Position numbers and translations under genes: made by a program
Source: Flavobacteriia bacterium
GTDB lineage: Bacteria; Bacteroidota; Bacteroidia; Flavobacteriales_D; Crocinitomicaceae
Direction of reading: 5' to 3'
Assembly: GCA_009924735.1 (NCBI GenBank)
Contig: RFQZ01000010.1
Location: 1-64,000 of the forward strand
DNA length: 64,000 nt
Notes under the pieces: generated by a model
What the model saw: only the letters and a program-made list of their open reading frames with translations
Told to the model about the DNA's origin: nothing
The model's database searches: none
Shown here: one piece after another, positions 1-17,500 of the stretch
Layout: every line of letters begins with the position of its first letter
Numbering within the stretch: position 1 is the stretch's first letter

Positions 1-61
1 TTTTTACGATTTGGACTTCTGAGAATTTTGATTTTTTCATAACTAAAACAATTTAAATTTA

Positions 62-1237
62 ATGATTTTAAATTGTCTGAAAAACGGGGAAGTTTACCAT
101 TGGAATAAAGAACGGTTCAAAGCTTCAATAAATTTTTCTTGGATTGCAGAAGATGGAAATTTGTTTCCTGCACCAAATGCACAACTTATACTCTACCCTA
201 AATATCCCGAAGTTAGATTTTCAGGATTTTTGGCGAGATGCCAAAATCCACCGTCAGCATTAATGACACAAAGACTTGCTGACAGGCTTTTATTCTTTTC
301 AGTAGCAAAAAACGGAACTATTTTGGGTTACGTTGCAGACCCAAATTCTGAAATTGCAAATGAATTTGCAAACCAACAAAATATAACAAAACACGGAGTT
401 TTTGAAATTATTGAATTGCCACAAATAGCAAACAATAAAGCTGATTTAATTAATGAATTGCTTCGTATTCATCAATTGGGTTGGATAAAATCAAAACGAC
501 TTGACCGACTTGGAAATATTATGGATTGTGAAGCACCAAATTGTGGCGGTTACACTTTAGAAGCTGAATTAGGAATTACACCAAATGGATATTCAGAGCC
601 TGACTTTTTAGGATGGGAAGTAAAACAATTTGGCGTTGCCAATTTTGCAAGAGTGAACTCTGCAATTATAACTTTAATGACACCCGAACCAACTGACGGA
701 ATTTATCGAACTGAAGGAGCTGTAGCCTTTTTAAGGCAATATGGTTATGCAGATAGAACAGGAAGAGAAGACCGAATAAATTTTGGTGGTGTTCACAAAA
801 CAGGTATTCGACACCCATTGACAAATTTAGAAATGCAATTAATTGGTTTTGACGCAGAAAGTGGTAAAATCAGAAACACAAATGGACGCATTTCATTGGT
901 TGATATAAAAGGAAATGAAACGGCATCTTGGAGCTTTGCATCATTGCTTTTACATTGGAACAGAAAGCACAATCAAGCTTGTTACGTTCCTTCACTTTCT
1001 GAAACGGTTAACGAAAGACAATACAAATACGGAAACAATATAATTTTAGGAACAGGAACGGATTTTCAACTTTTTCTCGGACAAATGGCGAACGGTAACA
1101 TTTATTACGACCCAGGTATAAAAATGGAAAATGCTTCAACAAAGCCGAAAATTAAAAAACGAAGTCAGTTCAGAATTAAGTCACAGGATTTACCAAACTT
1201 GTATAAAGTAAACGAAGTTTTAGACATAACGAAATAG
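62..1237 (+). CDS. MvaI/BcnI-family type II restriction endonuclease
   Basis: 391 aa ORF; LGNIMDCEAPNCGGYTLEAELGITPNGYSEPDFLGWEVKQFG resembles the MvaI/BcnI catalytic region (E...D-x-EVK, PD-(D/E)xK-like). Confidence 0.85.
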   Translation: MILNCLKNGEVYHWNKERFKASINFSWIAEDGNLFPAPNAQLILYPKYPEVRFSGFLARCQNPPSALMTQRLADRLLFFSVAKNGTILGYVADPNSEIANEFANQQNITKHGVFEIIELPQIANNKADLINELLRIHQLGWIKSKRLDRLGNIMDCEAPNCGGYTLEAELGITPNGYSEPDFLGWEVKQFGVANFARVNSAIITLMTPEPTDGIYRTEGAVAFLRQYGYADRTGREDRINFGGVHKTGIRHPLTNLEMQLIGFDAESGKIRNTNGRISLVDIKGNETASWSFASLLLHWNRKHNQACYVPSLSETVNERQYKYGNNIILGTGTDFQLFLGQMANGNIYYDPGIKMENASTKPKIKKRSQFRIKSQDLPNLYKVNEVLDITK

Positions 1238-1266
1238 ACAAAATAACCGAAAAATAAAGGGCGAAG

Positions 1267-1396
1267 GCATAACACGGGTTTGGCAAAAGTGGCGGTTCAG
1301 TGCTCCGCAGACACATTTGTGGTTAATCAAAGTTTGGTTCTCCGCATCAACATTTGTGGTGAAAATCGCCACCTTCGCCAAGCCCGAAACCGTTAA
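1267..1396. repeat. Imperfect palindrome with attC-like layout (outer TAAC/GTTA, unequal spacers, GGGTTTGGC/GCCAAGCCC and GTGGCGGTT/AATCGCCAC stems) enclosing a 37-bp-period direct repeat
   Basis: Left arm 1267-1297 gcataacacGGGtTTGGCaaaaGTGGCGgTT; right arm 1364-1396 AAtCGCCACcttcGCCAAgCCCgaaaccgttaac. Loop repeats CTCCGCAnnnACATTTGTGGT at 1303-1323 and 1340-1360. Confidence 0.7.
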
Positions 1397-1397
1397 C

Positions 1398-1484
1398 AGT
1401 GGCTTAGCTGAAGATTTTGATCCAGAAGAACATTTGAAAATGTTAAAGGCCCGCCCTTCGGTCGGACAGGTAAAAAGAAAGTAA
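1398..1484 (+). pseudogene. Possible C-terminal remnant of a truncated gene (SGLAEDFDPEEHLKMLKARPSVGQVKRK*)
   Basis: 28 coding-like codons ending in TAA with no good start; begins immediately after the palindrome. Confidence 0.4.
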
Positions 1485-1556
1485 ATGGGAATAACAACAG
1501 AGAGAAACGTAGTTTTATACATTTCAATGAGTTTAGTCAGCGATGTTGCGTTTTAA
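1485..1556 (+). pseudogene. Possible N-terminal remnant of a dihydrofolate reductase/RibD-C-like gene (MGITTERNVVLYISMSLVSDVAF*)
   Basis: RNVVLYISMSL resembles the (R)KVVLYIAMSLDG start of DHFR/RibD-C family proteins, then terminates after 23 aa. Confidence 0.35.
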
Positions 1557-1601: not shown

Positions 1602-2033
1602 TCACCCACAAGCAATCTTCCCTACACGCGTAGCGTGTCTTCCCCCTTCAAATTCGGCAGATAGAAATGCATGTAAGATGTCTATAGCGAGTTCTTCACT
1701 GATAAAACGCGCCGGTAACGACAAAATGTTCGCGTCGTTGTGCTGACGGGCTAAACTGGCAATTTCTGGGGTCCAACACAGGGCACATCGAATGCCTTGG
1801 TGCTTGTTGGCTGTCATGCTAATGCCATTTCCTGAACCACATATGAGTATGCCATAATCCACATTTTTTAATTCAACTGCGCTGGCTACAGGATGGGCGT
1901 AGTCTGGATAGTCAATACTGGCCTCGCTGTCGCAGCCGAAGTCTTTTACCTGATGACCGTTGGATTCTAAAAATGTGATTATTTTTGTTTTCAATGCAAA
2001 ACCTGCATGATCAGACCCTATTGCTATTTCCAT
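1602..2033 (-). CDS. rpiB: Ribose 5-phosphate isomerase B
   Basis: MEIAIGSDHAGFALKTKI...CGSGNGISMTANKHQGIRCALC is typical RpiB. Confidence 0.95.
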   Translation of the reverse strand: MEIAIGSDHAGFALKTKIITFLESNGHQVKDFGCDSEASIDYPDYAHPVASAVELKNVDYGILICGSGNGISMTANKHQGIRCALCWTPEIASLARQHNDANILSLPARFISEELAIDILHAFLSAEFEGGRHATRVGKIACG

Positions 2034-6343: not shown

Positions 6344-6768
6344 TAGACTTTACTTACTTTAATCCTGAGAAGGAGGCAGAGACAAACCTTTTTTTAGTTA
6401 AAACAATCCCATCTTTACTGGCCGAAGAAAACAAAGAAGAAGGAGAGATTTCATTGGTTTTTTGTACCGACGAAGAGTTGTTACAGGTGAACAAAGACCA
6501 TTTAAATCACGATTTTTACACAGACATTATAACGTTTGATTATTGCGAGGGAAATACAATCAGTGGAGATTTGTTTATTTCAACGGAACGCGTAGCTGCA
6601 AACGCAACTGAGTTTGGGGTCGAATTTGAAGAAGAATTGGCACGTGTTGTCTTTCATGGTTTGCTCCACTTATCGGGCTATAACGATAAATCAGAAGAGG
6701 ATAAAGCAATCATGCGCTCAAAAGAAAACCACTACCTAAACAAATTGTTTCACGTGAAACAAGCATAA
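6340..6768 (+). CDS. ybeY: rRNA maturation RNase YbeY
   Basis: DIITFDY...[11 protein letters not shown]...[25 protein letters not shown]. Confidence 0.9.
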
Positions 6769-6790
6769 AAACACCCAACAAAAACTTCTT

Positions 6791-8659
6791 ATGTTACAAA
6801 AATATGACATTATCGTCGTGGGTGCTGGTCACGCTGGCTGTGAGGCTGCTTTAGCTGCAGGTAAGCTTGGAAGTAAGGTGTTGTTGGTGACAATGAATAT
6901 GAACACCATTGCACAAATGAGTTGTAATCCAGCCATGGGCGGAGTGGCAAAAGGACAAATTGTTAGGGAGATAGATGCTTTGGGCGGCGGGTCTGGCATC
7001 GTGAGTGACAAAAGTGCAATTCAATTTAGGATGCTCAATATGTCTAAGGGCCCAGCCATGTGGTCACCCAGAACCCAAAATGACCGGATGATGTTCGCGT
7101 CGGAATGGCGCCTGTTATTAGAACAAAACCAAAACGTTGATTTTTGGCAAGACATGGCAACAGACCTTTTAATTGAAAACAACCGAGCAATTGGCATAAA
7201 AACAAGTTTAGGTATTACCATTTTAGGGAAATCCATAGTATTAACCAATGGCACCTTTTTAAATGGAATTATACACCTGGGAGATAAGCAGTTTGGAGGG
7301 GGACGTGCCGCAGAAAAAGCATCAACCGGTATAACAGAAGCGCTGGTCTCTTTAGGTTTCGAGGCAGGAAGAATGAAAACAGGGACACCTCCCCGTGTGG
7401 ATGGCAGGTCTTTGGATTATGGTAAAATGGAGGTGCAATGGGGAGATGAAAACCCGACAAAATTTAGTTATTGGGACACAAATCCGCTCGTTAAACAGCG
7501 TCCTTGTCACATAACCTATACCAATGAGAAAACACACGACGTACTCCGAACTGGATTTGATCGCTCACCCATGTTTAACGGTGCGATTAAAAGTGTGGGG
7601 CCTCGCTATTGTCCAAGCATTGAAGACAAAATAAATCGCTTTGCAGATCGGGATAGACACCAGGTTTTTGTAGAGCCAGAAGGATGGAGCACCATAGAGA
7701 TTTATGTGAATGGTTTCAGTACTTCGCTACCAGAAGATGTTCAAATGAAAGGACTTCAAACGATCCAAGGTTTTGAAAACGCAAAAATGTTTCGTCCTGG
7801 ATATGCCATTGAATACGATTATTTTCCACCTACCCAACTCAAACATACCCTCGAAACGAAAAACATTGAACACCTCTATTTTGCAGGTCAAATTAATGGT
7901 ACGACCGGTTACGAAGAAGCGGCTTGTCAAGGACTAATGGCTGGAATCAATGCGCACCTGAAAGTTGTTGAAAAAGAACCGTTTATACTTCAAAGAAGCG
8001 AAGCGTATATTGGAGTGCTCATTGACGACCTCATCACCAAGGGAACCAATGAACCTTACAGAATGTTTACAAGCCGGGCTGAATTTAGAATTCTCCTTCG
8101 ACAAGACAACGCGGATCTAAGACTTACCCCAAAGGCATTTGAGTTGGGGATGGTAGGTGAAAATCAAATGAATCAAGTGATGAACAAACGCACAGCTACG
8201 GCCGGGTTAAAAGACCTATTGCGTAAAACAGGAATCACACCTCAATCCGTAAATCCCTTGCTAGAAGGCATAGATTCAGCCCCCATTTCACAGCAAGTAA
8301 AACTAACCAGCATCTTGGTGCGACCCTTTGTTAAGTTAGAAAATCTTGTGGCGCTTTCACCCACACTCGAAGCATATATATCCCAAAACGACATCAATGA
8401 GGAAATTTGTACCCAAACAGAGATACAGTTAAAATACGAAGGCTACATTGAACGGGAAGAGGAAATCGCGATGAAGATGAGTAGATTGGAAAATTTAGCC
8501 ATTCCAGAGGATGTTGTTTATTCCCAGTTGAAAAGTTTAAGTACAGAGGCCGTTGAAAAACTAACAGCCATCGTACCGAAGTCCATTGGACAGGCTGCAA
8601 GAATTTCTGGGGTCTCTCCAAGCGACATTGCGGTATTGTTAATCTACCTGGGGAGGTAA
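6791..8659 (+). CDS. mnmG: tRNA uridine-5-carboxymethylaminomethyl(34) synthesis enzyme MnmG
   Basis: [23 protein letters not shown]...[22 protein letters not shown]. Confidence 0.97.
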
Positions 8660-8810: not shown

Positions 8811-9764
8811 ATGAAAAAGCAGAAAATTTATTTTTTAGATAAGGTGCATTCCGTTCTCGAAAGCCGTTTGGTGAAATCTGGGTTTGAATGTGTTGATGCA
8901 ACCCATTTTAATTTTGAGGATTTGCTCGAACATAAACAAGATGTTTTTGGCATCGTGCTAAGGTCAAGGTTTGTTTTAGATGAAGAGAGACTGTTGCCTT
9001 TGTCAAATTTGAAATTTATTGCCCGCTCAGGATCTGGACTCGAAAACATTGATGTTAATTACTGCAAGCAAAAAAACATCATGGTTTTTAATTCACCTGA
9101 AGGAAATAGGAACGCTGTTGCTGAGCACGCGCTTGGCATGTTGTTGTCTCTGTTGAATCATTTAAACTTTGCTGACCAACAAGTTCGAGAAGGTCTCTGG
9201 CGAAGAGAAGAAAATAGAGGGGAAGAATTGGATGGCAAAACCATCGGGATCGTTGGGTTTGGAAATACAGGAAGTGCTTTTGCAAAAAAACTACGAGGCT
9301 TCGACGTAAAAATACTGGTCTACGATAAGTACAAAACAGGCTTCGGGGATTCCTATGTACAAGAAGCCACCATGGAAGCCATTTGGAAAGAAGCAGATGT
9401 AATTTCATTTCACATCCCTCAAAACAAAGAAACAAAAGGATTGGTCAATAAGGAATTCATCAGAAATTTTAACAAACCCATCATTCTTTTGAATTTGTCT
9501 AGGGGAAAAATCGTCGATACAACTGACGTAATAGAAGCATTGGAATCAGGGAAAATAAAATCGGCAGGGTTTGATGTACTGGCTTATGAATCTAAAGATT
9601 TCGAAAACTTATTTTCACAAACGCTCCCTGCCGATTTTATTAAATTAACCCAAATGAAACAGGTTATACTGTCTCCTCATGTAGGCGGGTGGACCAAAGA
9701 GAGTTATTTCAAACTCAGCAATGTTTTGGCAGATAAAATTTTAGAATGGTCTGATAATCAATGA
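8811..9764 (+). CDS. D-2-hydroxyacid dehydrogenase (phosphoglycerate dehydrogenase-like)
   Basis: TIGIVGFGNTGSAFAKKL Rossmann motif; LLNLSRGKIVDTTDVIEAL; LSPHVGGWT. Confidence 0.88.
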   Translation: MKKQKIYFLDKVHSVLESRLVKSGFECVDATHFNFEDLLEHKQDVFGIVLRSRFVLDEERLLPLSNLKFIARSGSGLENIDVNYCKQKNIMVFNSPEGNRNAVAEHALGMLLSLLNHLNFADQQVREGLWRREENRGEELDGKTIGIVGFGNTGSAFAKKLRGFDVKILVYDKYKTGFGDSYVQEATMEAIWKEADVISFHIPQNKETKGLVNKEFIRNFNKPIILLNLSRGKIVDTTDVIEALESGKIKSAGFDVLAYESKDFENLFSQTLPADFIKLTQMKQVILSPHVGGWTKESYFKLSNVLADKILEWSDNQ

Positions 9765-12721
9765 ACTATGAGCTTTTTAACCACGCAGTCATTCGATTTT
9801 TTAACCCACACCTGATAAAACCCATTGGCCAAAGAGATTGGAATCCCATCGTTTTGTTGCAGTTTTGATGACATTACGCATTTTCCGTTGGCATCGTATA
9901 CCTCAATTTGAATGGGTTCCGTTACATTGTTAAAGTACAATACAGAACCGTCATTCGGATTCGGATAAATCTCTACATTGTTTAATGAATGGTCTTCTTG
10001 TAAACCTGCGTTTAGGATCAATTTTTGCCCATCCGTAGAGTAAGTGGCAGTAAGCGAGGCATTGTTAAAAGCGCGATTGTTAATGTAATATGTGGTATTA
10101 TAAACCGGCGAAGCGAGCGTATGGCTATATGAGTTGCCATTGTTTACACCCACCCAATTGCTGATGTTTGTACTTCCCGCACTTGTTCCAACGGATACAT
10201 CAAAATAGGAGATTCCAGAATGAGGATCAACGATGTTCCAATTGGAATTAAGGGTAGAAGTGTATACAGTATCAATGTCATTGCCTGCTCCATCGTTGAT
10301 GGCATTTAACTGTGGAGCGGTCCAATCTACTTGTACCAATTGGGATGAGGGAGCGGACCAGTTTCCAGCTGAATCAATGGCAATCATACGAATGTCACCA
10401 GACTGTATTTGTTGATCACTTTGGTACCGGATTTCTTTATTAGCCCCAACAGAAACAATTTCCGTAGGTGAATTTGCCTTGTATACAAAGATGTCATCAA
10501 AATCTATTGTACAGCCTCCAGACCGCAAAGAAACAGAGTTACCGGTAAGCAGAGGGTTCGCATCTTGCCACTGTGCTATGGCAACACCATCTAAATACAC
10601 CTTAATCCATCCATTAGAAGGATTATAATGCGTGTAAACTTTATACCAGACATTTGGCGCCATGATAGCCGTGTCCTCAAATACTACTGTAAATGCGTCA
10701 TTGATAACCTTGTAAATTTGTACCTTATTCGTCTCTTCTCTGAAAAACACGAAATAGGAATTTCCTCTATTGGGTAAGATGGGATCGCTGCAAAAAAAGT
10801 GCATTCCTGCTCGCTGGTTAGCGTTGCTAGAGGTCATGCGTTGTCTCCAGGTGTATAAATAAATGGAGCCGGTGTTTTGGGTTAATTGGGCATACGCATT
10901 GGAGTTGTTTTGGCTTGCATCGTTTAAGGAGAATACTCCAGCGTTTACTTGAAAGGCCCCTGTTTGATTTGTCCATTGAAGGTTGTTTAAGGTAAATTCA
11001 TCTCGTAAAAAGCCATAACTGGGATTACTGTAGAATTTTGCATTCATCGAAGAACGGTCTGAGACATTGTAGTAAGATTTTAAAACACCTGACTGTGCAT
11101 CTGTCGATTGTAACGTGGCAGTGAAATCCTGGGTATTCCAAACTTGAGGCACCGTTGCCACACAAGATGGAGGGGTATTGTCGATGTTGTTTTGAGAGGA
11201 CACATACGTAGCGCTCCAACCGGTTTGGTTGGTAGCACAATCCGAACGAAATTCAATGGTTAAGGCTCCTGTTGTAGAGGTTGCTGTTGCGGGCAAGGTA
11301 CTTCCTGAATAGGACCCAATAATAGGGGCATTAATGTTCGCTCCGTCATAGATAATCATTTTATCAAATACCGGTTCCACATTGAATTGCGTAAAAGTGA
11401 GGGTAATGTTGCTTGCGCCAACGGGTTGTATCACCCACACTTTTCTTTCGTCGTTTGGATAATTTGCACCTGCTCCTCCGGTGTCAAAAAAGCTTCCGCT
11501 GGCGTTCGTGATGAGGGTTGGTGTGTAGGTGTTGTTTATGAGACGGTAGTATTTTTCCCAATTCCAATTAATTCCTGGGTCGGTATGTAATTGACTTGGG
11601 TAATGCTGGTGGCCTTTTATTTTTAAGCAATTCCCAAGCGTTTGGGTGGTTGTTGAGGATGCCCCATGATAGGTCCGAAGGGGGTTAATTCCATAGCCAC
11701 TCTGTGTAATGTCTTTCACTAAGTTGGCGGATCCTTGGTACATAGCGTTGGTATACCATGTCGCATTTGAAACATACCCTTCATGTTCTATTCCAATGGT
11801 GTAAGGATTCTCTGTACCTACATGCCAAGCCTTGTTTGTTTCTAATACCATTTGTGTGGTTTGTCCATCAGAACTTCTTACCACATAATGATAAGAAACC
11901 TGTGAATTACAATTTAAGCCCCAAGAAATTGCTCCGGAATAGGTTCCTTGTACGGTGTGAACGGTAACCGCAGAGATTGCTGTTCCATTTCGCGAACTGT
12001 AATTACAGGTTGGTGCTGCTGTCCACAAGGCAGGACCGTAGTCAGCCGACTTGAGTTGAGCGATTTGAGCATCGTATTTAACACCATCCACATTGGTTAT
12101 GCCCTCGTCAGATAAGGTTAGTTTTTGGGATGAAAGCACAGCATAATTCTTTTCACCAAATTGGGCCTTCATATCTAAAGCATATTGTGGGAATTGATAC
12201 ATAGCGGCATAATACTCATCGTTTAAAAAGGAATAGACTTCGTAAACGCTGCTTTGAAAGGCATATAAGTTGCCTTCATTGTTTTGGGGGAATTCAGTCA
12301 AAACAGCCATGAGACCATATATTTTTTCCGCCTCTGTTTTATGGGTATTTTGGCTTGTTTCCCAAAAGCGTAAAAGCGAATCGCAGGCCTTTGCAAAGGC
12401 AAATATTTGCACAGAAACCTGATCTTTTTGTTCATTTATCCCAATTCGACTGAGTTTTCCAATGAGTTTTCCGTTCTCATTGAAATACCCTTTTCCATCC
12501 GCGAACACCCCCATGATGCCATAAGGCAAAGGCATACCAGAACAAGGCGTTGTTTCTTGCGCATCGATGGGCACCATACGCGTATGTGTATAGGCGTAGG
12601 CCTCCAGGAACCCCTTGGGCACAGAAGGAAACTGTTGATAAGCATGGTTGAAAGATACCGATTGTGCTGTAGTGAAGCCAACAGCAAAAGTAGAGAACAG
12701 AATAAACAAGAATAATCGCAT
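9758..12721 (-). CDS. Secreted N-acetylmuramoyl-L-alanine amidase with CUB-like and LamG-like regions and a T9SS sorting domain
   Basis: Signal peptide; TVHTVQGTYSGAISW...YHYVVRSSDGQTTQMV...IGIEHEGYVS...GHQHYPSQLHTDPGINWNW (Amidase_2-like); C-term VEIYPNPNDGS...NGFYQVWVKKSNDCVVKKLIVH. Start MRLFLFILF chosen within the longer ORF. Confidence 0.85.
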   Translation of the reverse strand: MRLFLFILFSTFAVGFTTAQSVSFNHAYQQFPSVPKGFLEAYAYTHTRMVPIDAQETTPCSGMPLPYGIMGVFADGKGYFNENGKLIGKLSRIGINEQKDQVSVQIFAFAKACDSLLRFWETSQNTHKTEAEKIYGLMAVLTEFPQNNEGNLYAFQSSVYEVYSFLNDEYYAAMYQFPQYALDMKAQFGEKNYAVLSSQKLTLSDEGITNVDGVKYDAQIAQLKSADYGPALWTAAPTCNYSSRNGTAISAVTVHTVQGTYSGAISWGLNCNSQVSYHYVVRSSDGQTTQMVLETNKAWHVGTENPYTIGIEHEGYVSNATWYTNAMYQGSANLVKDITQSGYGINPLRTYHGASSTTTQTLGNCLKIKGHQHYPSQLHTDPGINWNWEKYYRLINNTYTPTLITNASGSFFDTGGAGANYPNDERKVWVIQPVGASNITLTFTQFNVEPVFDKMIIYDGANINAPIIGSYSGSTLPATATSTTGALTIEFRSDCATNQTGWSATYVSSQNNIDNTPPSCVATVPQVWNTQDFTATLQSTDAQSGVLKSYYNVSDRSSMNAKFYSNPSYGFLRDEFTLNNLQWTNQTGAFQVNAGVFSLNDASQNNSNAYAQLTQNTGSIYLYTWRQRMTSSNANQRAGMHFFCSDPILPNRGNSYFVFFREETNKVQIYKVINDAFTVVFEDTAIMAPNVWYKVYTHYNPSNGWIKVYLDGVAIAQWQDANPLLTGNSVSLRSGGCTIDFDDIFVYKANSPTEIVSVGANKEIRYQSDQQIQSGDIRMIAIDSAGNWSAPSSQLVQVDWTAPQLNAINDGAGNDIDTVYTSTLNSNWNIVDPHSGISYFDVSVGTSAGSTNISNWVGVNNGNSYSHTLASPVYNTTYYINNRAFNNASLTATYSTDGQKLILNAGLQEDHSLNNVEIYPNPNDGSVLYFNNVTEPIQIEVYDANGKCVMSSKLQQNDGIPISLANGFYQVWVKKSNDCVVKKLIVH

Positions 12722-14519: not shown

Positions 14520-17500
14520 TTATTCTGGCTTGATTTCAATGGTTTTCTGTGGTTCGTCAACTACTTTTTTCGTTGGGTTTTGAAGTACTTTAATTTGTTC
14601 TGCCAAGGCTTTTGCTTCGACCAGAATTCCGTCTGTTTCTTTTGTGGGATAAAAATCAATTACCGAGGATATGGTTTGTTCCGCTTCAACATAATTCTGT
14701 TGATCTATTTGGATTTTGGTTTGAAGAATTAGGCTTTTTGCAACCCAATAATTGTAACTCGGTTTCATTTTCAACAGCTGCTTGATGTGGGTTAATGCGG
14801 AGTCCATTTCCATCTGGGCATATTTAATATCAGCCAGCGCATATTTTGCCTCTGAAGCCCTCACCGTGGTGGTGTTTTTTACCAACCAACGGAGCGAAGG
14901 ACCCGCATCGTCATAACTTTTTACATAATAAGAACTCATACCCAACACATATTCAGCCTCAATGCGCAAGGGCTGTGTCAATGCGGGATTGTTTTTAACC
15001 TGCAAAGCATGTGTTTTTGCGTTGACATGGTTTTTAAGCAGAAAAGAGCAACGCATCAAACCTAACTTAGCTGCAAATTGATTCGTGGGCTTCTCGGCAA
15101 TTTGATCTAATTTCTGATAGTACTCCAAGGCTTTTTCGAATTGTTTATGATCATAGTAATAAGTTGAAATACGGTAGTACACCCCTTCAAAATATAGCGA
15201 CACAGGACCACTTACATAGGTTTCATAATATTGGATGGCTTGAACGGTATCCTTGGTTTTTAAGAAACTGTTTCCTAAGTAAAAGTTTGCATCTTGAAAG
15301 AACCGGCCTTCGGGAAATTTATTAATGTACTGTTTAAATTTAGGAATTGCATCCTGGTAATTGCTATCTACATAACTCTGTAGGGCAGGGTTGTAATACA
15401 AATTTTCCTTCTCATCAGAGGAGAGATCCGCACAAGCGTATTCGTTTGCCACTGCCTCTGCTTTTTCTGGGCTTTTCATGGCAACATAGACATCCATAAG
15501 TCCCTTTGCGGCCAAGGCACAAATGTCATTTTTATTGCTGAATTCTAGCAAGATGCCTCTATATGCGGATTCGGCTTTAACATAGTTCCATTGTTTGTAA
15601 TACAAATCCGCAATTTCGATTCTACAATTTAAAATTTTAGGAGATTTAGGATAGGTAGAAACAAAGTTTTCAAAAAGTTGAAACGCTTTCTCAAATTCTG
15701 ATTGAGACTTGTAGCTCATGGCAAGCTCAAAACTTGCATTTTGTAGGTATTTGGATCGCGTATATTTTTTTAGCAAGCCTTCCAGCGTATTGATTTTTAG
15801 TGAAGGTTGTTTGTTATAACCATAAGACTTGGCTAAGTAATACGTTGCGCGGTCTGACAAAGCAGAATTTAATTGAAGGATTTGCTTGTAGTATTGTATG
15901 GCTAACTCATCCTTCCCTTGGGCATAATTTCCATCCGCAAGTTGAAACATTGCATCCAAAGATTTCTCTTTATTCAAAGGGTTGGATTGAAGGTAAATTC
16001 CAAAATATTCTAAGGCATCGGTTGCTTGATCCAATTGTAAATAAGCATAACCGATGTTATAATAGGCCTCTGATTTTTCTTCCAAAAGGTTGGCTGAAGG
16101 TGAGCTTAAAAAGGTTTTATACGCAGTAATCGCATTCTTGTAAAGGCCTTTTCGATAATACAATTCCGCTTTCCAAAACTTGGCTTTTGCCATGAGTTCA
16201 GGTTCAAGGTCATATTTATCTACCAATCCAAAAGCGTTCAAAGCGGAGTCTAATTCCGATTTTTGAAACAATTCTACGCCAAAATTATAGGCTACTGTTT
16301 GGTAAACACGCTTTAATTGAGCATCCTTATTGGCAAGCTTGTTTAACGATTCTAAGGCTTTAGCATAGTTGCTTGTGGAGGCGTAAACATTCACTAAGTA
16401 TTGAAAAATATCTTGCTTTCTTTTGGAATTTGGGTACATCGAAAGGTAATGTTCAAAAGCGCGTACCGATTCATCATAGGGATTGATGTCAATGTCAAAT
16501 GAAATTACAGCAAACTGATAGAGCGCATCTTCGGATACGTTGGGCAGGGACTTCATCCGAGAAGCTTTTTCAAATGCATTGCGCGCCGGAACGGGCTTTC
16601 CAAGACTTGAATAACAGGTCCCAATTTGATACATGGCGGTTTGTCCAAGGCTGTCATCTATCCTTGCCACTTTGTCCAAATAGGCAATGGCAGCTTCATT
16701 TTTTTTAGACATCATGAAGGAAAATCCCAATTGATAATCATCCATCCGTGTGGTGTTGGATTTCTCGTCATATTGTGAAAGATACTTTGCTGCGTTTTCA
16801 TAATCCCCAGTCTGGTAATAGGAATCGCCTAACAAATGAACAATGTCTTGGTAATTACTGTATTCAAGCGTATCCACCTGAAGGAGGGCATTGGCGTACA
16901 CAATTACACTGTCGTAAAGTCCCTGTTTGTGATTGATTTGAACAATGTAATAGGGCGCAATTTCAGCATATTCAGCCTTTGATTTAAGTAAATGAAAACC
17001 TTCTTTTGCCGTTTGTAAAGCACCTTTTAAATACCTTAAATGGGAAGCATAATATAGGGCAATAGGGCCATAAGGGTTGATTGAATAGGTAACATTTTGA
17101 AAGTGTTGCAACGCCTTTTCATTGGAGCCCCCTTGGTAATATCCGTACCCCATTTTAAAGTTTACGCTTTCTTTTTCAATACTGTCCAACGCATTTACAT
17201 CCACCTTATCAAACGATAGGTTGGCGTTTTCATAGTCTTCATTTTCAAAATAGCTGTTGCCAATTTCAAAGTAAATGATGTTTTTATAAGTGTTTTCAGG
17301 GTAGGTTCGATTGAAATCATCCAACAAAGCAATCGCATCGGAATGGTATAAGTGCAGCGCGGCCATCCCTCGGTGGTAGGTTGCCATTAAGACAATGGGG
17401 TCATTTTTATCGAGTTTTTGAGCCAAAAATCGTTCATACTCAATCCTCGAGGCAGCAAACTGCGACTTCTCGTAGAGGTCCTCCGCACGGTGATAATCGG

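Follow-up and report, generated by a model that had tools for sequence, protein, structure and literature searches.

The stretch of DNA analysed here, referred to as the window, comprises 64,000 nucleotides, and its first base is base 1 of contig C74 in a genome of 2.50 Mb (G000, 99% complete). An open reading frame at positions 62-1237 of the plus strand had been assigned to an MvaI/BcnI-like restriction endonuclease (REase) in a first-pass annotation, and a match of its product to the Pfam family MvaI_BcnI (PF15515, E 2.3e-47) confirmed this assignment. The gene proved not to be intact. Bases 1-98 constitute the right end of an IS3-type insertion sequence, missed in the annotation, within which the contig starts; across 101 nt it is 99% identical to the terminus of an IS copy on contig C1. 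The first 12 codons of the listed frame belong to the IS, and the REase proper begins at about position 99 as the 3' part of a gene that is split by the element. The copy on C1 is of the IS3 type with rve and HTH_Tnp_1 open reading frames, and a 4-bp target duplication, ATTG, is found on both sides of the element, with C1 reading GGAGATTG/IS and the window IS/ATTGGAAT.

Ahead of the IS on C1, at 116.6-117.9k, we found a cytosine-5 methylase gene (66% to the methylase partner of a Runella REase) and the start of the REase gene, the N-terminal part of which showed 58% to residues 1-57 of the Runella enzyme. Methylase and REase start sit behind a further attC-like site at C1:118125-118209. Judged by these sequences, the REase cassette is larger than its part in the window: it is a methylase-REase cassette now broken by an IS3-type element. 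The C1-C74 junction is deduced from the reading frame and ATTG duplication, because C1 continues into other DNA past its IS copy. Within G000:C1 about 115.3-119.4k and window 1-98, contig breaks fall at the IS; in several genomes they coincide exactly with the GTT of the attC-like site. On Runella and Spirosoma plasmids, REase homologues are organised as methylase-REase operons with no attC-like site beside them; therefore, the site is no fixed part of this restriction-modification (R-M) family.

The imperfect palindrome described earlier downstream of the REase gene is real and spans 1270-1395 (TAAC A CGGGTTTGGCAAAAGTGGCGGTT ... AATCGCCACCTTCGCCAAGCCCG AAACC GTTA). Its 5' box (TAAC, 1270-1273, plus strand as all parts of the site), a YAAC or R''-like element, lies about 33 nt past the REase stop. 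The 5' arm of the stem (1275-1297) starts 1 nt after YAAC and contains two positions that are A.C on the top and G.T on the bottom strand, as is typical of the family. A variable loop region of 66 nt (1298-1363) separates it from the 3' arm (1364-1386), and the arms, each of 23 nt, are 83% complementary. The stretch 1387-1395 comprises a 5-nt spacer, AAACC, and the R'-like box G^TTA (GTTA at 1392-1395), with which cassette edges in other genomes coincide; crossover is predicted between G1392 and T1393. The reported asymmetry of the spacers held, but inclusion of the basal C-G pair in the stem shortens them from 2 and 6 nt to 1 and 5 nt. A motif-plus-stem scan of the 64 kb window gave the site a score of 28, and shuffled sequences gave none. 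The bare DNA fold of the site was mildly unusual (z -1.55); a single fold as proof was dropped at this value, and significance was therefore drawn from the family. An Rfam search of the palindrome yielded no match, which is non-decisive for a reading as RNA element.

Downstream of the palindrome, a remnant of 206 nt (1396-1601) is followed by rpiB (1602-2033, minus strand; PF02502). This gene is a fixed chromosomal flank, found as the same neighbour in relatives with other cassettes or none. In three genomes (G007, G067, and G079) hemW abuts the 3' end of rpiB without any cassette, and in the closest relatives, G001 and G061, the hemW-rpiB locus contains a 584-aa ORF plus site and a 141-aa ORF plus site. 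The 584-aa ORF had no Pfam match and appears helicase-like by eye. The REase cassette and the 206-nt remnant occupy the locus in G000; the remnant is missing in G001, where the end of rpiB itself comes straight after GTT, and it is probably the residue of a further cassette. Within it, window 1396-1490 contains an open stretch (VNSGLAEDFDPEEHLKMLKARPSVGQVKRK, then a stop), which may be the last part of a cassette gene that was lost. Thus, the presence/absence polymorphism named in the first-pass annotation as a mark of a mobile cassette was seen at an orthologous locus.

Cassettes were also exchanged between species with exact boundaries. A 737-bp cassette with a 207-aa ORF is 99.7% identical in two species, G067 and G068. 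On its 5' side G067 reads GGGTATAGGCTA/GTTATC, which is of the attI type, and G068 reads GCTGCAAAAC/GTTATC, which is of the attC type; both copies stop at CGTTA and then diverge. Likewise, a ParDE cassette follows attI in G020 and an attC-type end in G030, and additional cassette pairs (82-97%) share the same exact 3' edge. As far as can be read from sequence, these exact-edge pairs are what an exchange of cassettes by site-specific recombination would be expected to produce.

Copies of the site were searched for in the own genome by BLAST and a covariance model. Divergent copies were located on C42 (two), C57 (several), C68, C3, and C1, and a half copy on C12. As anticipated for a cassette system, they lie 3' of unrelated accessory genes, comprising a TonB-type outer-membrane receptor, an NAD-binding protein, lipoprotein-like genes, an MNT/HEPN pair, and a PLD-like nuclease; the site on C3 is followed by a RelE-type pair with an HTH partner. 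On C42, at about 4003 and 398 of the minus strand, two sites have exchanged halves, such that one site's 5' arm is complementary to the 3' arm of its counterpart, as if recombination had taken place through their similar loops. The PLD-like nuclease gene (6764-7504 of its locus, with the half site behind) shows 84% identity over 765 nt to the first cassette (9041-9781) of a Sphingobacteriales MAG array.

A first high-threshold motif scan missed most copies and was replaced by a scan for the geometry YAAC[A/G] ... A[AC]CGTT[A/G] plus stem, which gave 120 distinct sites in the loci examined. Their common layout is YAACA, 0-2 nt and stem, then stem, 5-6 nt and G^TTR. YAACA is present in 120/120 scanned sites; the 5'/3' spacers measure 1/5 nt in 52 sites, 3/5 in 27, and 3/6 in 21. 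Site lengths form two groups of about 48-77 and 120-125 nt, the latter including the window site, with a few longer ones, and the stem sequence is free to vary. The deviation of the boxes from the consensus RYYYAAC/GTTRRRY, mentioned before for the window site, turned out to be a family-wide trait: only 5/120 and 8/120 sites match, with YAACA and GTTR in their stead. Stem statistics are biased in that sites were mostly found by a stem scan, except in a stem-free sample of 127 candidates selected by sequence only; among these, a stem was present in 81/127 as compared to 3.6 with arms re-dealt. Covariance models were built from loop-truncated arms and often missed long-loop sites, the window's own included; their counts are therefore lower bounds.

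The stems are strongly strand-asymmetric. Top-strand mismatches comprise 209 5'A.3'C and 19 C.A, i.e. 228, as compared to 27 G.T/T.G, and the A.C mismatches occupy the fixed stem positions 7/8, 11/12, and 14. This bias persists in the stem-free sample (152:25). Since each conserved A.C of the top strand corresponds to G.T on the opposite one, folding favours the bottom strand, which was the more stable one in 104/120 sites, by a mean of -2.7 kcal/mol (P 5e-17). In classical attC sites the active bottom strand is marked by two extrahelical bases (PMC3053210, PMC4792948); here, a bulge within the first 18 bp clearly helps in 23/92 sites only. A hint comes from a plasmid of Chryseobacterium sp. 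SNU WT5 (NZ_CP041688.1, about 15480-17480), on which an attC-like site is interrupted by a group II intron (ltrA) in antisense orientation that separates the YAAC box from the stem. The bottom strand there would read TTGT/T, which group IIC-attC introns are known to target (PMC7923331); the intron position thus independently hints at recognition of the site in the form of its folded bottom strand.

With their location always 3' of genes and on the sense strand, the palindromes could be regarded as RNA elements, terminators, or REP-like repeats behind genes instead of recombination sites. Terminators and sense RNA structures are ruled out by the strand asymmetry, the sense strand folding worse than the antisense strand in 104/120 sites; furthermore, the sites are tightly linked to a recombinase, and in different genomes they coincide with cassette edges. 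We consider this explanation practically negligible.

The sites are arranged as expected for the ends of cassettes. In 104/111 sites, a same-strand ORF lies directly upstream, as compared to 275:271 for random intergenic points; the stop of this ORF lies a median of 11 nt ahead of the site, and the next ORF starts a median of 36 nt past it. The strand bias expected of cassettes was complete: 38 adjacent site pairs are on the same strand and 0 are opposed, with a spacing of about 1 kb. The complete chromosome of G036 contains an array of at least 10 sites in about 20 kb. Cassette contents include R-M systems, toxin-antitoxins, PLD and NERD nucleases, and a STAND-type NTPase. In an array of Flavobacterium aciduliphilum (9064-11092 of its locus) the first cassette consists of a complete HaeII-type methylase and restriction enzyme. 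A plasmid of Flagellimonas marinaquae (NZ_CP092416.1, 6904-7739) carries a dihydrofolate-reductase-family gene between two attC-like sites; this gene directly adjoins erm(F), and the plasmid is mobilizable.

No integrase had been visible in the first-pass annotation, which holds for the window but not for the genome. A search with the integron-integrase model TIGR02249 identified a tyrosine recombinase at C49:3911-4729, and relatives carry similar ones. These C49-type recombinases match the model on both sides of a gap at 180-236, and its cut-off was reached by no recombinase in 58 genomes. An alignment of C49-type recombinases scanned against named genomes gave 80 loci picked by recombinase alone. 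A blind site scan of these loci revealed 35 sites as compared to 2.0 in shuffles, with 33/35 located downstream on the recombinase's strand; covariance-model hits on this strand amounted to 33/34 and 9/9. Among loci with at least 3 kb downstream, 15/17 from Bacteroidota had sites as compared to 0/23 others, which include eight with true IntI (Fisher 3e-9). Maps of the order recombinase-ORF-site-ORF-site were obtained for Algoriphagus ornithinivorans, F. aciduliphilum, Algibacter onchidii, Seonamhaeicola aphaedonensis, Winogradskyella ursingii, and Flavobacteriaceae S0862. At the sequence level, cassettes of one or two genes, each ended by a site and all in one orientation, are thus located downstream of a recombinase gene and an attI-like sequence.

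In sequence, the recombinase resembles XerC/XerA, and it lacks a region present in IntI. Between KDR and HxLRH it has 57-59 residues (with few outliers of up to 67 in the whole patch-less set) as compared to 100-101 in ten IntI, and IntI forms its own clade in a recombinase tree calculated without Xer sequences. The I2/patch region of ~41 residues is absent, residues 185-242 of VchIntIA being faced by 16 residues only. VchIntIA residues K209, Y210, W219, P232, H240, and H241 contact the extrahelical bases of attC (PMC3053210), and all of them fall in the stretch missing from the patch-less enzymes. The patch residues are missing and extrahelical bases are mostly missing as well; enzyme and site therefore lack corresponding features. 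A predicted structure (pLDDT 85) contains no helix between 184 and 202; among the PDB matches listed, its top TM-score was 0.75, to VchIntIA 2A3V.

Behind the recombinase gene an attI-like region with inverted boxes was found, which ends e.g. in TATAAGTAA/GTT or CAATT/GTT. Three genomes of the same genus (G017, G026, and G033) are identical at 44/45 positions behind the recombinase up to ACGTT; past it, G017 and G026 are unrelated and the contig of G033 stops. In the own genome, no attC-like site was detected within the 3.9 kb of the contig carrying the C49 recombinase; type I R-M genes, apparently the first cassette, follow the attI-like GTT at about C49:3813. Two ORF6N-domain genes precede the C49 recombinase and are likewise found beside the recombinases of same-genus relatives.

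Narrow covariance models detected sites in 29/58 same-genus genomes, in 42/148 of the same order, and in 30/248 genomes sampled across the Bacteroidota; sites are present in named isolates and on the SNU WT5 plasmid. According to IntegronFinder 2.0, integrons are near absent in Bacteroidetes, with one complete case, Salinibacter, named (PMC9024848), and attC models for source tracking include no Bacteroidota (PMC8352920). The I2 insertion was called essential for integron function, yet its conservation within the group of integron-like recombinases is incomplete (PMC8138268). In the open-access literature (PMC), we came across no account of patch-less integrons bearing sites of this kind. Apparently, standard searches missed the system because its recombinase is without the domain thought essential for integrons.

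Two readings had been offered for the window, a CALIN-like cassette or an unrelated Bacteroidota-specific family. The array logic, the G^TT cut, and the attC length range are shared with an ordinary CALIN, i.e. classical attC cassettes moved in trans by a classical IntI. However, only 5/120 and 8/120 sites have the classical boxes, and the spacers of 1-3/5-6 nt differ from the symmetric ones of classical attC, as compared at a true IntI locus. Furthermore, the sites adjoin a different, patch-less recombinase, TIGR02249 remained below its cut-off in all 58 genomes, and the family model R2 matches 0/30 genomes from outside the Bacteroidota, among them Vibrio and Nitrosomonas, which possess a true IntI. 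An ordinary CALIN is thus very improbable, and a Bacteroidota-specific family in the form of a non-standard integron fits better. Of the two or more sites in a row that make up a CALIN, the window contains one, and the next, at C1:118125-118209, is connected to it solely via the IS-split REase.

A double-stranded transfer of modules in the style of Xer/dif or pdif, with an incidental hairpin, would agree with the XerC/XerA-like recombinase lacking the ssDNA module and with the inverted boxes of the attI-like sites. It would leave unexplained the 228:27 asymmetry of A.C over G.T, and every cassette retains a palindrome of 50-190 nt with variable stem sequence and fixed geometry; we regard it as unlikely, though slightly less so than a CALIN.

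Very probably, then, window 1270-1395 is an attC-like site that closes a mobile cassette of an integron-type system that is widespread in Bacteroidota, with strand choice via G.T pairs. The proposal that a gene with a terminal folded site forms a mobile cassette is supported by the copies, the strand bias, the polymorphism, and the exact-edge exchange. The bottom strand of the site would fold into a hairpin, and the recombinase would join the G/TT end of the hairpin to attI or another site; replication would then resolve the recombination product. The strand would be picked by the conserved G.T pairs and not, as in classical attC, by extrahelical bases, which agrees with the absence from the recombinase of the I2/patch region that holds these bases.

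On balance, we favour the view that Bacteroidota possess a second, I2-less class of integrons, capturing cassettes as folded single strands without the IntI patch and with strand choice laid down in conserved wobbles; this class may predate IntI or be independent of it. If this is true, much of the integron biology of a major phylum is invisible to current detectors. It also raises a testable question, namely whether single-strand recombination of cassettes depends on the I2 helix in general or only where the sites have extrahelical bases. The cassettes carry R-M systems, toxin-antitoxins, nucleases, and a STAND-type NTPase, and would therefore provide an exchange route for defence genes in a dominant phylum.

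With known integrons (class 1-3, the Vibrio superintegron, and CALIN) the system shares a recombinase gene with adjacent attI, one-orientation arrays of one- or two-gene cassettes, a hairpin site at each cassette 3' end, insertion at G^TT, a better-folding bottom strand, and a content of accessory and TA/R-M genes. It differs in its recombinase without I2/patch, in R boxes shrunk to YAAC/GTTR, in asymmetric spacers of 1-3/5-6 nt, in conserved G.T wobbles replacing the two extrahelical bases in most sites, and in a recombinase gene oriented as the cassettes. By its sequence features, the system would be an integron in working principle but would stand outside the integron family by the I2 domain, R boxes, and extrahelical bases, possibly as a separate class. 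The "integron-like" simple tyrosine recombinases (Smyshlyaev et al. 2021, PMC8138268) and Xer are likewise simple two-domain enzymes; as far as searched, cassette arrays or attC-like sites are not described for the former in that work. The XerCD-dif (pdif) modules of Acinetobacter resemble the cassettes in being small, in relying on Xer-type enzymes, and in having no transposase. The pdif sites are short and double-stranded, whereas the cassettes described here each have a long strand-asymmetric palindrome and are associated with a dedicated recombinase.
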